Below, piece by piece: positions 40,217 through 54,953 of a DNA stretch of 64,000 bases. This stretch comes from an uncultured Alphaproteobacteria bacterium (GTDB lineage: Bacteria; Pseudomonadota; Alphaproteobacteria; Rhodobacterales; Rhodobacteraceae). The stretch covers positions 40,377-104,376 of the forward strand of contig CACAAX010000001.1 in the NCBI GenBank assembly GCA_902530595.1. Reading direction: 5' to 3'. A program made the position numbers and the translations under genes. A model generated the notes under the pieces. It was not told where the DNA came from. It searched no databases and saw only the letters and a list, made by a program, of their open reading frames with translations. The first letter of the stretch is position 1, and each line of letters starts with the position of its first letter.

Positions 40217-41044
40217 ATGGAAGATGATTTCAAAAATATAGTTTCTACAGATTGGCTTGCACAACATTTAGAGGCTCCTGATATAAGGATAATTGATTCT
40301 AGTTGGTATTTTCCGCAAGAGAAACGAAACGCAGAACAAGAATTTTTAGAATGTCATATTCCGGGGGCATCTTTCTTTGATATTGACAAAATAAAAGATA
40401 ACGACAGCGACTTACCTCACATGCTACCACCCTCGGAGATGTTCAATTCTACTGTCCGGAAACTCGGTATAGGTGATGGACATAAAGTCGTCATATACGA
40501 TGGATTAGGAATGAGGTCTGCTGCTCGACTATGGTGGATGTTTAAAGTGTTTGGATACTCTGATGTAGTTGTACTTGATGGAGGATTCCCAAAGTGGGTT
40601 AAAGAAAATAGATCGACTACAGCTGATCTAAACGAGAAAGAAATTAGACACCTGACTATCTATGAAGATAAGAGTATAGTAGCTGATAGGGATGATGTTC
40701 TGAGAGCAACTAAATTAAATCATTGCTCAATAATTGATGCGCGTTCAGAGGAGCGTTTTATGGGAACAGCGCCTGAACCAAGAAGTGGTTTGCGATCTGG
40801 ATCAATAGAAAATTCAATTAATGTTCCTTATGAAACTCTATTGAATGAAGATTTTACGTTTAAAAAAAAGCGAGAGATTTTAGATATCTTTTCTAAGAAG
40901 GGTGTAGTTTTTAATAATTATATTATTACAACTTGCGGGTCAGGAGTAACTGCAGCGGTTTTATATTTAGCGTTAGACGAAATTGGCTGTTCAAAAATTT
41001 CCTTATATGATGGTTCCTGGGCGGAGTGGGGAAAAATTGATTAG
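40217..41044 (+). CDS. sseA: 3-mercaptopyruvate/thiosulfate sulfurtransferase (two rhodanese domains)
   Basis: VSTDWLAQHLEAPDIRIIDSSWYFP; TTCGSGVTAAVLYLALDEIG. Confidence 0.92.
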   Translation: MEDDFKNIVSTDWLAQHLEAPDIRIIDSSWYFPQEKRNAEQEFLECHIPGASFFDIDKIKDNDSDLPHMLPPSEMFNSTVRKLGIGDGHKVVIYDGLGMRSAARLWWMFKVFGYSDVVVLDGGFPKWVKENRSTTADLNEKEIRHLTIYEDKSIVADRDDVLRATKLNHCSIIDARSEERFMGTAPEPRSGLRSGSIENSINVPYETLLNEDFTFKKKREILDIFSKKGVVFNNYIITTCGSGVTAAVLYLALDEIGCSKISLYDGSWAEWGKID

Positions 41045-45154: not shown

Positions 45155-48001
45155 TTAGACACTACGGCTACAATATTCTTCTATGAATCTCTTCTTGAGA
45201 AAGGGTCTTAGTAGTTTTACGGGGTGTATAGATAGACTTAACCGTAGAGATTGATAATCTAAAATCAATTCTTCACCTAAAGTCATATTAGGAAGATTGA
45301 TGCTTTTTTCTGGTAAGTATTCCTTCTCAGAATAACCTTCAAAAAGGGCTAAAGAATTTGTTTTTTTTATAGCTTGAGCATCCCACAGTAATAGTCTTCT
45401 GTTTTTATTAAGAGAGTGAAAGCAATTTGCTTTAATCAGCAGCTTTATAATACTTGGGCCCAGTTTAATACGATGCCATAAATCTTGGGGATCATTATAA
45501 CCATTGCCTCTCTCTTTAATAATTCTATCGACGTCATTTTTTGACAGTCCTTTGATCTGCCTGAACCCCAGGCGTAAACTAAAACAAGGTTCGCCGTGAT
45601 TTTCTAGAGAATGGTTCCATTCGCTTTTGTTTATGCATATTTCTTTAACTTTTACTCCGTGATTTTTTGCATCACGTATTATTTGGGAAGCAGAGTAGAA
45701 TCCCATCGGTTGAGAGTTTAGTAAAGCGCAGGCAAAAACATCAGGATAATGATATTTTATCCAAGCTGATGCATATACAAGAATAGCGAAGCTTGCAGCA
45801 TGACTTTCAGGAAATCCGTATTCACCAAACCCCGATATCTGAGAAAAGCACTTTGTAGCAAAATCCTTGTCGTATCCATTTTTTTGCATGCCATCAATAA
45901 ATCTTTTTTTAAACTTACTAACAGTACCGTTTCTCTTAAACGTTGCTAATGATTTTCTCAGTCTATCAGTATCTCTCAAGGAAAATCCCGCACCTTTCAT
46001 TGCAATTTGTATTGCTTGTTCTTGAAATAGTGGCACGCCAAGAGTCTTACCAAGAATTTCTTTTAGTTTTTCGGAAGGAAAAGTAACTTTTTCTTGTCCA
46101 TTTCTTCTTTTTATATAGGGGTGAACCATATCCCCCTGAATTGGCCCAGGTCTGACGATGGCAACTTGTATTACCAGATCATAAAAGCATTGTGGTTTTA
46201 ATCTCGGAAGGAAGTTCATTTGGGCTCTGCTTTCAACCTGAAAAACCCCTATAGTGTCCGCTTTGGAAAGCATATTAAAGACACGTGTATCTCGATGTGG
46301 AATATTGTTTAGGCTAACTTTCCGGTTGTGATGGTTTTTTATTAAATCAAAAGATTTTTTTATACATGTCAGCATCCCAAGAGCTAAAATATCTATCTTT
46401 AGTATACCTAAAAAGTCTATGTCATCTTTATCCCATGCTATTATACTTCTGCCTTCCATAGCAGTATTTTCAATAGATGTAATCTCATCCAAATAATCCT
46501 CAGTAATTATAAAGCCACCTACATGCTGACCTAAGTGTCTAGGAAAGCCTATCAATTGGTCGCTGAGGGCCAAAGTCTCCAATATTCTAGTATGGTCATT
46601 CTTACCTTTTAAGTTGTTATTATTGTAATGAGGTATCTTATGTCTATCCCATCCAACAATATTTTCAGCCATCGAGGATATTATTTCTTTGCTTAACCCC
46701 ATTACTTTGCCTACATCTCTTATCGCTCCTTTCGCTCTGTAGTGGATGACTGTAGCGCATAAGGCAGCTCTTCTTTCGCCATATTTCCTATATATTTCGT
46801 CTATTATCTCCTGTCTGCGTTCATGCTCAAAATCAATGTCAATGTCAGGAGGTTCGTTTCTCGCTTCTGATATAAAGCGCTCGAATACCATAGACCCAAT
46901 CTCCGGGCTAACGGACGTTACTCCCAAAGAAAAACAAACTATGGAATTAGCAGCAGAGCCACGGCCTTGACACAAAATACCTCTACTTCTTGCAAATTTC
47001 ACTATGTCGTACACTGTGAGGAAATAGGGAGCGTATTTGAGTTTTTTTATTAACAGAAGTTCTTTTTTTACTCCCTTTAATATTTTCACAGGAATATTTT
47101 TTGCATAATATTCATTTAATCCATTAAAGGTTAGCTCGTGTAATATTGTATCGGGGTTCTCTCCTTTGAGCACTTCTTTAGGGTATGTATAGCTGAGTTC
47201 GTCTAAAGAAAACGAGCATCTATCGCTTACAAAGTTAGTGTTGTGTATCGCTTCAGGATAATCTTTGAATATAGTTATAAAATCATGGGGTGATCGCATT
47301 CTTTGCTCTCCATTAGTGCTTGATTCAACTCCCAGGTCATCTATAGTGCATTTCATTTTTATTGCAGATAGGGTATCTCTGACTTTTCGTCTCGAGCCAT
47401 GATGCATTAGAGGAGTAGAAGACCCTACAACTCCACACTTAGCATTTTTTGCAAACTTATTGATTTTGTAAAAACGTATTTCATCCAAGCCATCATATCT
47501 GGGCGCCATAACTATATATATAGATCTACTATTATTTCTCTTGAGTATTTGGATAAACCTCAACCACTCAAGCCTCTCTGAAAGGCTATGATTTTTTTCT
47601 GAAATATGAGCTAAGAATATAATGCCATCTTGGTTTTTGAGAATACTTTCATAGTCAATATGGGAATAACCCTTCTTCGAATTTTTTTTTCCAGTAGTTA
47701 AAACTTTGCATATGTTTTTCCATCCTTGTCGTGTCTGAGCTAAGCATGTTATTTCAGTTCTATGAGTTGTGACAATAGTAACTCCTGGTATTAGTTTTAG
47801 AGGAGAGTATTTACTTTTAGTATCATATTCGATTTCCTTTATAGTTCTAAGCCCTCTTACTATTCCAGAAATGCAATTTTTGTCGACAATTGCTATAGAT
47901 TTTAATCCAAACTCTATTGCTCTTTCAACATACTCTTCAGGATGGCTAGCTCCTTCTAGGAAGCTGAAATTAGATGTTATGCAAAGCTCTGAATACGACA
48001 A
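45155..48001 (-). CDS. dnaE2: Error-prone DNA polymerase DnaE2/ImuC, apparently lacking the C-terminal OB-fold
   Basis: PHP domain N-terminus MSYSELCITSNFSFLEGASHPEEYVERA; PDIDIDFEHERRQEIIDEIYRKYG; follows imuB. Protein stops just after LGEELILDYQSLRLSLSIHPVKLLRPFLKKR. Confidence 0.93.
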   Translation of the reverse strand: MSYSELCITSNFSFLEGASHPEEYVERAIEFGLKSIAIVDKNCISGIVRGLRTIKEIEYDTKSKYSPLKLIPGVTIVTTHRTEITCLAQTRQGWKNICKVLTTGKKNSKKGYSHIDYESILKNQDGIIFLAHISEKNHSLSERLEWLRFIQILKRNNSRSIYIVMAPRYDGLDEIRFYKINKFAKNAKCGVVGSSTPLMHHGSRRKVRDTLSAIKMKCTIDDLGVESSTNGEQRMRSPHDFITIFKDYPEAIHNTNFVSDRCSFSLDELSYTYPKEVLKGENPDTILHELTFNGLNEYYAKNIPVKILKGVKKELLLIKKLKYAPYFLTVYDIVKFARSRGILCQGRGSAANSIVCFSLGVTSVSPEIGSMVFERFISEARNEPPDIDIDFEHERRQEIIDEIYRKYGERRAALCATVIHYRAKGAIRDVGKVMGLSKEIISSMAENIVGWDRHKIPHYNNNNLKGKNDHTRILETLALSDQLIGFPRHLGQHVGGFIITEDYLDEITSIENTAMEGRSIIAWDKDDIDFLGILKIDILALGMLTCIKKSFDLIKNHHNRKVSLNNIPHRDTRVFNMLSKADTIGVFQVESRAQMNFLPRLKPQCFYDLVIQVAIVRPGPIQGDMVHPYIKRRNGQEKVTFPSEKLKEILGKTLGVPLFQEQAIQIAMKGAGFSLRDTDRLRKSLATFKRNGTVSKFKKRFIDGMQKNGYDKDFATKCFSQISGFGEYGFPESHAASFAILVYASAWIKYHYPDVFACALLNSQPMGFYSASQIIRDAKNHGVKVKEICINKSEWNHSLENHGEPCFSLRLGFRQIKGLSKNDVDRIIKERGNGYNDPQDLWHRIKLGPSIIKLLIKANCFHSLNKNRRLLLWDAQAIKKTNSLALFEGYSEKEYLPEKSINLPNMTLGEELILDYQSLRLSLSIHPVKLLRPFLKKRFIEEYCSRSV

Positions 48002-48027: not shown

Positions 48028-48909
48028 TCAACCTGCCTTATTGGAAGACAGTTGAAAGATTATATAGTGATTGAATTTTATAAAATTATCAGAATTTCTT
48101 ATATTTCCGTAAATTCTATCATGTAACCGTCTGCGCTTTTTCTGGTTTACTATAGTCTTATAGACTAGACTAAACAGCTTCATTTTCCAAGGATGGCTTG
48201 CTACTAAGCCTTGATGTACTTTGTCTATTCCAACGCCAACTACATTATAAAATTTTTGCTCTATATCTAAAGATGGAGCAACAGATTTTGTTATATCTTT
48301 TTTTGATATAATATTCAAATCTACATCTTTAATTAGTTTCAGCATTTCCGATAAAGGATGTCCTCCTCCTGGTCTTCTGTTGTGACTACTATGCTTGACG
48401 TCAGAGCGGAAGCAATCCGCAACCAATATTTGTCCACCTTTGTTTAGTAATCCTTTAGCCTTTTTTAGCGCAATCTTTGCAGGAATATATTGAAAGCTTT
48501 CTGAAAACAGACATAAGTCAAATGTCTGTTTTTTTTTGGGTTCATAATCTTCAAACCTTATATTATGAACTTCAGCTTTATTATTTGTATTTTCTAAACA
48601 TCGTTTGCTTAGTATATCGCTAGGTACAATAATAGTGACGCTATGGCCTAAGGAGATTAACTTCTTTGCTGTTTCCCCAGCACCTCCGCCAATATCAAGG
48701 ATCTTCAGCTTTTTCTTTTTTGGAAAGTATTTGAACAGTATTTTTGTATACTGTTCTTGAGCCTTACCCAAATTCTCAAGACAAGGGTCTAGGTTGTCCC
48801 AAACGCCATAGTGCATGTTCTCTTTTCCAGTAACAAATTTTGCTATTGCCAAAGAAACCTCAAGCCCAAGAGCTTTAGTATCTAATGTATTATTTTTTTG
48901 AAATTGCAT
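48028..48909 (-). CDS. Class I SAM-dependent methyltransferase
   Basis: LKILDIGGGAGETAKKLISLGHSVTIIVPS motif I; FDLCLFSESFQYIPAKIALKKAKGLLNKGGQILVADCF. Confidence 0.88.
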   Translation of the reverse strand: MQFQKNNTLDTKALGLEVSLAIAKFVTGKENMHYGVWDNLDPCLENLGKAQEQYTKILFKYFPKKKKLKILDIGGGAGETAKKLISLGHSVTIIVPSDILSKRCLENTNNKAEVHNIRFEDYEPKKKQTFDLCLFSESFQYIPAKIALKKAKGLLNKGGQILVADCFRSDVKHSSHNRRPGGGHPLSEMLKLIKDVDLNIISKKDITKSVAPSLDIEQKFYNVVGVGIDKVHQGLVASHPWKMKLFSLVYKTIVNQKKRRRLHDRIYGNIRNSDNFIKFNHYIIFQLSSNKAG

Positions 48910-48931: not shown

Positions 48932-50620
48932 CTAACAAAAATTACCATGTACAAACCATCTATTTTCTGAAATCTTATTCTTTTCTTCAAACATCCACAA
49001 CCTTGCACCACACGTTGTTGTCACCTCCCAATAGTCACGTAATCTAAAATTCGTCCCTTTATCCTTGTTCCACCATTCAGACGCTATTCTTTCAGGTCCA
49101 CGTACATAGCAGGCTTTATACTTTTTTCCTCTCCAACTGAATTTATTCAGATAGTCATTTCTATACAAAGTAGCATTAATGAGATCCGGTGAATATAAAA
49201 GTATTGGTCTGATAAATTTACTTTTCTGCCATTGATTACCTGTTTTTCTTTTTGGTTTGAATTCATCTAAAGAAAAAGTTTTCTCTGGTATGTGACTGTG
49301 GCGTTGTGCGAAGGATTTCACCTTATTTTTCCCTAACCTAGCTTCGATTCTGGCCATCAATAAACTTATTTTTTCTTCCTCATTTAGATATTTAGAAGTG
49401 CAATCTCTACCAGGAACATTTATAGCTATTTGTCTTTCTCTTGCTTCTTCAATATGTACTCCTTCAAGAATTATTGCTTCTATATTTTTGAGACTTTTGA
49501 TAGTCTTGAGTTTTTCTAGCATTACCAGTTCTATTTTGGCTTTGTCTTGCGTGGGGTTACTGAAATTTATCTCTATAAGTAATTTGTTGTTTGGTGGAAA
49601 CTTAACATTACATCTTCTAATTAGCTTTTTATTTTTCTCGAGCTTATCACATAGTTTCTTAATAAGAGTTTTGATGAATTCACTTATACCTTGAAGAGTT
49701 ATTTCTCCTAAGAACAGTTCTATTGAAAAGGAATATTTTTCTTCCAAGACAATTTTATTGAATAATTCTGTTTCTTTACCCAAAACTTGCCGTACTCTTT
49801 TGGTTATATGATTGCCAAATCTTCTATTAATAGAAGTCGAATCTATGTTTATTAGATCTCCAACTTTGTATATACCAAATAAATTTAATAGATTTACATC
49901 GGTACTTTCTATATTCAACGCTTCCACTGGTAAGGAAATAAGAGATTTTTCTGTTTTATCATTATCAATTATTCTAGATTTGTATATGGAGTCATTAACA
50001 GAATAGCCTGTATTAAAGATAGATAATTTCTTGTGCAAATTCTCGGTATCTCTGTCGCTAGGAATTTTAATCCTTGTAGCTCTACTTTGATCATTGATTA
50101 TTTTTCTAAGATTTACTCTTGGTTGTTTTTGATTGGAACTATTTTGGAATCTTGCTGTTGCCCAAGCGGCTCCCTGAGTTCCCGCAATCCCTATAATGCT
50201 GAGTATATTAATTTTAGAAAAATGAGTTGTTAGTTGATGTATAAAGTCTTTCTCTTTCCCCGTGAATTTCTCGCATCCTGTTATATCAAGCATCAAGCTA
50301 TCATAGCCATCTAATCTTACAAGAGGCGTGAATTGATATGTGAAACTAAAAAGTTTAATTAGTTTTTTTTTAAGATCCGAATGTTGAACTGTTTTACTAA
50401 TCACATGAGGGTTCAATGTCAGAGTTTCCTTAGTAGACATTCCAGCGCATATATTTAGCTTTTTAGCTAATCTATTTGCGCATATTATTTCCTCCCCTTC
50501 AGAAAAAGAAACAACTAGAGGTAATGAATCTAATAGGGGTTCTTTAGATAATATCGTCTCTAATGGTAACTGTGGAAACCAAATGGAAGCGAATCTATTT
50601 TTCAATTTTATTTTGTTCAT
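48932..50620 (-). CDS. imuB: ImuB-like Y-family polymerase-related protein
   Basis: RFASIWFPQLPLETILSKEPLLDSLPLVVSFSEGEEIICANRLAKKLNICAGM; C-terminus SEWWNKDKGTNFRLRDYWEVTTTCGARLWMFEE...WFVHGNF; followed by dnaE2. Confidence 0.93.
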   Translation of the reverse strand: MNKIKLKNRFASIWFPQLPLETILSKEPLLDSLPLVVSFSEGEEIICANRLAKKLNICAGMSTKETLTLNPHVISKTVQHSDLKKKLIKLFSFTYQFTPLVRLDGYDSLMLDITGCEKFTGKEKDFIHQLTTHFSKINILSIIGIAGTQGAAWATARFQNSSNQKQPRVNLRKIINDQSRATRIKIPSDRDTENLHKKLSIFNTGYSVNDSIYKSRIIDNDKTEKSLISLPVEALNIESTDVNLLNLFGIYKVGDLINIDSTSINRRFGNHITKRVRQVLGKETELFNKIVLEEKYSFSIELFLGEITLQGISEFIKTLIKKLCDKLEKNKKLIRRCNVKFPPNNKLLIEINFSNPTQDKAKIELVMLEKLKTIKSLKNIEAIILEGVHIEEARERQIAINVPGRDCTSKYLNEEEKISLLMARIEARLGKNKVKSFAQRHSHIPEKTFSLDEFKPKRKTGNQWQKSKFIRPILLYSPDLINATLYRNDYLNKFSWRGKKYKACYVRGPERIASEWWNKDKGTNFRLRDYWEVTTTCGARLWMFEEKNKISENRWFVHGNFC

Positions 50621-50629
50621 GCTTTGTTC
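50615..50629. promoter_or_regulatory. Putative alphaproteobacterial LexA (SOS) box GTTC-N7-GTTC overlapping the imuB start codon
   Basis: GTTCATGCTTTGTTC on + strand (GAACAAAGCATGAAC on the imuB coding strand); matches the GTTCN7GTTC direct-repeat operator known for alphaproteobacterial LexA; imuB/dnaE2 are classic SOS targets. Confidence 0.8.
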
Positions 50630-53413: not shown

Positions 53414-54398
53414 GTTGGTAGATTTCTCTCTTATTTCTGATACATACGATAAAATCCATCAGCATTTAGTTGAAACGCCTTTACTAGAATCGCCTTTCCT
53501 AAGTAAACGACTAAATAAGCGTGTTTTCATCAAAGCTGAGTGCCTACAAAAAACAGGTTCTTTTAAATATAGAGGAAGTTGGTCTTCTTTTGTAAATAAT
53601 GACTTCGAAGACTTAAAAAAGGGTGTATTAGCGTACTCTTCGGGAAATCATGCCCAAGGTATAGCAGCCGTTGCAAATCAACATAAAATTCAAGCTACAA
53701 TCATCATGCCAAAGGATGCTCCTAGACTTAAGATAAAAAATACACAGTCATATGGAGCTAATGTAGTATTTTACGATCGAATAAAAGAAAGTAGAGAAGA
53801 GATTGGTGAAAGGCTGCAGAAAGAAAAAAATTTAAAGCTTATAAGACCCTATGATGATCCCTTTGTAATTGCTGGACAAGGCTCTCTGGGAATTGAGCTA
53901 ATCAATCAAGCAAAAAGGATGAAATTAGATGCGGCAGATGTACTAGTTTGTTGTGGAGGAGGAGGATTAGCTTCAGGTATTAGTTTAGCTTTTCAGGGAT
54001 TAAATGAGAATTTTAAGGTTAGAACTTGTGAACCTGAAAATTTTGACGATATGGCTCGATCATTAAAGCAAAAGAGTAGAATAACGAATAAGGCGATGGA
54101 TGGATCTATTTGCGATGCTATTTTGACTCCCACGCCAGGGGAGTTAACTTTTGAAATTCTTGAAAAGTATGCGGCTCCTGGTCTAGTCGCTAGTGATGAA
54201 CAGGTTCTTGAGGCAATGTCCTTGTTATTCTTGCATCATAATCTAGTTGTTGAGCCTGGAGGTGCCATCTCACTCGCAGCAGCGCTCCATCAGCATGGAA
54301 AAATACACTCAGATGCGCTTATTATAGTCTGTACAGGTGGAAATGTTGACCCAGTTATTTTTTCAAGAGCTTTAGATCTAATTGATTCTAAAGATTAA
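53400..54398 (+). CDS. Threonine/serine dehydratase-like PLP enzyme
   Basis: ECLQKTGSFKYRGSW; AYSSGNHAQGIAAVA; VCCGGGGLASGI. TTG start (53400 or 53415), overlaps fabI end. Confidence 0.9.
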   Translation: MRRHELVDFSLISDTYDKIHQHLVETPLLESPFLSKRLNKRVFIKAECLQKTGSFKYRGSWSSFVNNDFEDLKKGVLAYSSGNHAQGIAAVANQHKIQATIIMPKDAPRLKIKNTQSYGANVVFYDRIKESREEIGERLQKEKNLKLIRPYDDPFVIAGQGSLGIELINQAKRMKLDAADVLVCCGGGGLASGISLAFQGLNENFKVRTCEPENFDDMARSLKQKSRITNKAMDGSICDAILTPTPGELTFEILEKYAAPGLVASDEQVLEAMSLLFLHHNLVVEPGGAISLAAALHQHGKIHSDALIIVCTGGNVDPVIFSRALDLIDSKD

Positions 54399-54568
54399 GT
54401 ATATTTTTTTAATAGTTGCTTCGTAAGGCGTTTTTTATACCGACGTTGTCTTTGTCGGCTCTTAGTTATATTCGCTCGCCAATGTTCACGCTTGTCCTTT
54501 ACGATCTCTTCGAAATCTCGAGCTACTTCAATATTATTGGCATCTATTTCATATGTTCTTTTGGTCAT
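54395..54568 (-). CDS. Small basic protein of unknown function, 57 aa (not in ORF track)
   Basis: Reverse strand ATG 54568 to TAA 54395: MTKRTYEIDANNIEVARDFEEIVKDKREHWRANITKSRQRQRRYKKRLTKQLLKKYT; only coherent ORF in the gap; stop codon overlaps the stop of the convergent dehydratase gene. Confidence 0.5.
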   Translation of the reverse strand: MTKRTYEIDANNIEVARDFEEIVKDKREHWRANITKSRQRQRRYKKRLTKQLLKKYT

Positions 54569-54618
54569 ATGTAAATAAATAGCCTTAATATAATATAATC
54601 AAAAAACTATTTACAAAT

Positions 54619-54633
54619 GTTCGCTTTTTGTTC
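54619..54633. promoter_or_regulatory. Putative LexA (SOS) box GTTC-N7-GTTC
   Basis: GTTCGCTTTTTGTTC; lies between TTTACA (54610-54615) and TATTTT (54634-54639), a plausible -35/-10 pair with 18-nt spacer, directly upstream of the 102-aa ORF. Confidence 0.7.
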
Positions 54634-54644
54634 TATTTTAAGCT

Positions 54645-54953
54645 ATGAGTATGTACGAATCATATAAATCCATCTCAAAAAAAATCACTTTGAAGGATGT
54701 GAAAAACTTATTCAGAGAGAACGAAAAGACCTGGAATAATTTTATTCGTTTAGAGGGGCAAACTATAATTTTTAATGGTTGCACAGTTCAAATTTCCTGT
54801 AATTTAGATTGCTCTGTAGTATTTAGAACTAGAGAGGAAAGGCACAGTGAGTGTCTGCAATACATCATAAGTTGTCTTGAGTTTGGTCTAGACACAAAGA
54901 TTTGGCATGAGGAGATTTTAACGGAAGTTAATACCCTTTACGAGACTATTTAA
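54645..54953 (+). CDS. Uncharacterised 102-aa protein, candidate SOS-regulated
   Basis: Complete ORF MSMYESYKSISKKITLKDVKNLFRENEKTWNNFIRLEGQTIIFNGCTVQISCNLDCSVVF...; preceded by SOS-like box and promoter-like hexamers; followed by a possible terminator. Confidence 0.72.
   Translation: MSMYESYKSISKKITLKDVKNLFRENEKTWNNFIRLEGQTIIFNGCTVQISCNLDCSVVFRTREERHSECLQYIISCLEFGLDTKIWHEEILTEVNTLYETI

Follow-up and report, generated by a model that had tools for sequence, protein, structure and literature searches.

The window analyzed here, a 64,000-nucleotide stretch of DNA from an uncultured Rhodobacteraceae bacterium, contains a genus-restricted gene for a 102-aa protein (ORF102; 54645..54953, plus strand) preceded by a putative LexA-controlled promoter. 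A predicted LexA operator of the GTTC-N7-GTTC type, GTTCGCTTTTTGTTC, occupies positions 54619..54633 on the same strand, between a -35-like hexamer, TTTACA (54610..54615), and a -10-like hexamer, TATTTT (54634..54639), which abuts the operator; the ATG of ORF102 is at 54645. These positions, taken from the first-pass annotation, proved exact to the base. The predicted GTTCN7GTTC operator overlaps the ORF102 promoter, as in members of the alphaproteobacterial LexA (SOS) regulon. The -10-like hexamer is weak, and since it ends 5 nt ahead of the ATG, the ORF102 mRNA is probably leaderless, starting at or beside the ATG. A divergent gene, p57 (54396..54566, minus strand), encodes a 57-aa basic protein and is separated from ORF102 by a 78-bp intergenic region. 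Two mutasome genes lie in the same window, imuB (48932..50620, minus strand; Pfam IMS, E 3.5e-13) and dnaE2 (45155..48001, minus strand). A second predicted LexA operator (50615..50629, plus strand) overlaps the start of imuB, about 4 kb from ORF102, where the same motif had indeed been reported; this box is found in 15 distinct sequences of the genus, and imuB falls in the same predicted LexA regulon as ORF102.

By count, the bare 8-base motif is not enriched. The window holds three copies of GTTC-N7-GTTC versus 1.35 expected, in agreement with the chance-match estimate that accompanied the first-pass annotation, and 15 of 100 shuffles reach three; the third copy (40764-40778) lies inside a 275-aa ORF. 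Genome-wide, there are 19 copies versus 31 for the reversed control. With the bare count at chance level, conservation and context had to decide. In an alignment of 14 distinct ORF102 upstream sequences, all eight half-site bases are invariant, while mean identity is 0.86 over the 35 intergenic columns that lie beyond the promoter. TTTACA is identical in 13 of the 14 genomes, the -10-like hexamer reads TATTTT in nine, TAATTT in two, TATTCT in two and TACTTT in one, and the gap between box and ATG is 11 nt in all genomes except one, where it is 12 nt. Failure to find the operator upstream of orthologues had been set beforehand as a possible refutation, and it is kept in 14/14 genomes. It is this conservation, together with the context, that makes the predicted ORF102 operator real.

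The same operator is found on the central SOS genes. For Caulobacter, the LexA consensus has been published as GTTCN7GTTC (PMC4211646, PMC12700426), and work on Dinoroseobacter counted both orientations as LexA motifs (PMC6473078). The assembly to which the window belongs is 62% complete and lacks recA and lexA, and the operators were compared in congeners only. There, GAAC-N7-GAAC, the GTTC repeat as read on the opposite strand, precedes recA in 15/15 genomes and lexA in 11/12, the exception being the lexA of G001, so that in congeners the second refutation set beforehand, a different operator on recA and lexA, did not materialize either; in L066, a locus that starts near a contig end, the box lies ~30 bp before lexA. 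An extended motif, TGTTCNNNNTWTGTTC, was then written from intergenic sites of the window's own genome plus the recA and lexA sites. As TGTTCN4TWTGTTC, it has 106 sites in 22 genomes versus 4 for the reversed control, an enrichment that is partly fitted and no independent test because the motif was chosen from known sites. Among 97 distinct sites, 94 lie beside seven units: imuA (20), imuB (15), recA (14), lexA (9), and, with 12 each, a 38-aa peptide gene adjacent to recG, ORF102, and a gene for a stand-alone DnaE2 OB domain. A further site (L116) belongs to the peptide next to recG in a divergent genome, bringing the total to 95/97. The motifs at L119:1575 and L121:1502 (G009 and G005) have no assigned neighbor gene, and a box in G009 (C21) that had been attributed to imuB belongs to imuA. 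As far as the extended motif sees, the predicted SOS regulon of the genus comprises about seven units, and ORF102 is a constant member of it; any weaker boxes (e.g. at uvrA) would escape this motif.

Taken with the box kept in 14/14 genomes and the operator common to recA and lexA, these 95/97 sites on seven SOS-type units give strong sequence support to the LexA operator and DNA damage regulation that had been proposed for ORF102, which is very probably a LexA-repressed SOS gene. By analogy with established alphaproteobacterial SOS biology, LexA would bind at this promoter, be cleaved, and so allow induction by damage. In the undamaged cell, LexA bound to GTTC-N7-GTTC, which takes up the -35/-10 spacer, would block RNA polymerase. 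Upon damage, RecA assembled on single-stranded DNA would trigger LexA self-cleavage, the ORF102 promoter would open, and the mRNA, probably leaderless, would be translated into a soluble, acidic 12-kDa protein.

Of the 22 genomes available for this Rhodobacteraceae genus, 14 yield an ORF102 orthologue in a protein search, with 81-100% identity. The gene follows tdcB in 14/14 genomes in which tdcB is complete; in the eight other congeners tdcB is missing or truncated, and we do not regard these as true absences. Relative to the window copy, dN/dS is mostly 0.06-0.18, with dS up to ~0.7 and one very close pair being uninformative. ORF102 is a real gene under purifying selection. The predicted pI is 5.4, and the maximum 19-residue hydropathy is 1.24, versus 2.48 for the 38-aa recG-adjacent peptide, with no membrane segment. 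Four cysteines (C46, C52, C70 and C77) are invariant among orthologues. The cysteine cluster previously pointed out in GCTVQISCNLDC did not hold up, C55 being replaced by a serine in every orthologue but the near-identical G004 copy. In public records, the same sequences occur mainly in marine single-cell genomes, alongside MED-G56 and further MAGs labeled Alphaproteobacteria or Rhodobacteraceae. One contig with a 97% identical ORF102 (L035) sits in a MAG labeled Gammaproteobacteria, which is probably a binning or labeling error.

Outside the genus, profile searches that covered 396 other genera of the family, 387 class-level genomes, and 399 phylum-level genomes detected no ORF102 relatives, and phage and plasmid records, Pfam, NCBIfam, PHROGs, and PADLOC gave no match either. 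The weak matches that did appear in the class and phylum (E 0.003-0.05) were rejected: most are in broken frames, six class-level matches have no LexA box nearby, and the single phylum-level match has an in-frame stop. A Pfam PRRSV_2b match (E 0.026), below the cut-off, was likewise set aside as chance. A sequence search of the PDB returned only E values of 0.29 and worse. Two AlphaFold models, with pLDDT of 49 and 46, share, loosely and with low confidence, helices followed by a three-strand meander (residues 40-62) and then another two helices; the low pLDDT is probably due to the shallow alignment. Since the models are poor and Foldseek with the first of them returned nothing below E 0.001, no fold is claimed for ORF102.

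Only in this genus is ORF102 present, flanked by tdcB and a CDP-alcohol phosphatidyltransferase gene. In two other genera of the family (G078 and G137), the order imuB, Fur-family regulator, fabA, fabB, fabI, tdcB, DMGDH-like gene, miaB is kept, with one extra gene ahead of tdcB in G137; the regulator is irr-like, as judged by place and sequence. The gene directly after tdcB is that for the CDP-alcohol phosphatidyltransferase in G078 and the DMGDH-like gene in G137, and neither ORF102 nor p57 is present at either locus. ORF102 would thus have been gained in this genus, or have diverged beyond recognition and moved. Because two other genera hold the same order without it, the gene appears to be a genus-specific addition to the SOS regulon. 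ORF102 is a new gene, and its regulon is of a known kind; the gene clearly illustrates the entry of a lineage-specific protein into a core stress regulon, here in an AT-rich ocean bacterium. As in the Caulobacter-type LexA regulon, GTTCN7GTTC lies inside the promoter and the targets include recA, lexA, and genes of the imuA-imuB-dnaE2 type; the genus differs in that only some seven units bear the extended motif, one of them encoding a protein found nowhere else. Because the units are so few, each is a strong lead to a function in DNA damage, and ORF102 is the sole one of them without a functional clue. So small an SOS regulon also makes the needs of a minimal SOS response testable.

ORF102 may be a small cytoplasmic modulator of RecA filaments or of the ImuA-ImuB-DnaE2 mutasome, a reading that we favor by elimination and from co-regulation. 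It has the same operator as the mutasome genes, and imuB is nearby, but it has no sequence similarity to any part of the mutasome, and fab genes and tdcB intervene. The hhalign comparisons with ImuA, ImuB, DnaE2, OB, RecA, and LexA gave probabilities below 1%, like the controls. ORF102 is also reminiscent of DinI, the enterobacterial modulator of RecA filaments, in being small, acidic, and predicted to be SOS-controlled, and its low-confidence models show strands followed by a helix. However, there is no significant similarity between them, hhalign against E. coli DinI (a single sequence) giving 0.9%, with no Pfam DinI match. More speculatively, ORF102 could be the first member of a novel family of proteins regulating RecA or the split DnaE2 mutasome described below, one that a single AT-rich marine genus acquired and incorporated into its minimal, roughly seven-unit SOS regulon.

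It is doubtful that ORF102 is instead a checkpoint protein, a soluble inhibitor under LexA control that acts on cell division or on the start of replication. A small division inhibitor that evolves fast is a usual member of LexA regulons, and ORF102 is likewise small, besides being lineage-restricted, but it has no membrane segment, and the 38-aa recG-adjacent membrane peptide fits the role better. The latter, predicted to be a single-helix membrane peptide, adjoins recG in the genus (L110, L111, L113, L125, and others), and its gene has two overlapping LexA boxes, that is, three tandem half-sites in 11-nt steps. Similar LexA-boxed small peptides occur beside recG in G009, G137, and G078 (L116, L195, and L216). 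The peptide is a candidate SidA-like SOS division inhibitor, SidA being the 29-aa SOS division inhibitor of Caulobacter (PMC4211646). ORF102 resembles SidA in being small and predicted to be LexA-controlled, but it differs in that it is 102 aa long and soluble, rather than a very short single-span inner-membrane peptide. The checkpoint or repair accessory role suggested by the first-pass annotation finds no support, ORF102 being soluble, having no relative of known function, and being a poorer checkpoint candidate than the 38-aa peptide.

We consider it rather improbable that ORF102 is a recruited phage, defense, or toxin-like gene that hitched itself to LexA control. The gene is genus-specific, sits at a fixed spot, and has no known relatives, and we infer that such genes often stem from mobile elements. 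Against such an origin, the phage and plasmid records, PHROGs, and PADLOC gave no match, there are no mobile genes beside ORF102 in the window, and the gene is in the same place in every genome, under strong purifying selection and without variable presence.

That the conserved box serves p57 instead of ORF102, or both, is very unlikely. The two genes do have a common intergenic region, but on the ORF102 strand the box is bracketed by the conserved hexamers at a spacing that hardly varies, and no exact box is found near the p57 homologues of other genera. The p57 protein, which belongs to no Pfam family, has homologues scattered over ~14 further genera of the family; the ones examined are 52-65% identical to it. 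Those examined elsewhere have no ORF102-like neighbor, and because homologues occur in genera without ORF102, p57 is probably not a functional partner of it. Finally, a chance match upstream of a gene outside SOS control, which the bare count alone would allow, is scarcely credible: conservation is perfect over 14 genomes despite synonymous divergence of up to ~0.7, and recA, lexA, imuA, and imuB have the extended motif too.

The DnaE2 encoded in the window is 948 aa long and matches NF004225 over positions 5-941 of 1047, without the C-terminal OB domain, and it has the same length in four congeners. A separate, LexA-boxed 111-aa OB protein (L012:1518-1853) matches positions 938-1037 of the same model, which indicates that DnaE2 is split. 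A limited literature search found no description of such a split. About half of the matches in the family have the OB domain in a short open frame, several of them with a LexA box ahead. Between imuB and dnaE2 lies a class-I methyltransferase gene (48028-48909, minus strand), and a similar gene precedes dnaE2 in G137 (L209). The imuA gene is on another contig than imuB (L010:849-1481, minus strand), where it has its own LexA box and lies beside a gene for a 173-aa cytochrome-c-like protein; its product is a divergent 210-aa protein with a weak match to the ImuA model (E 0.0022).
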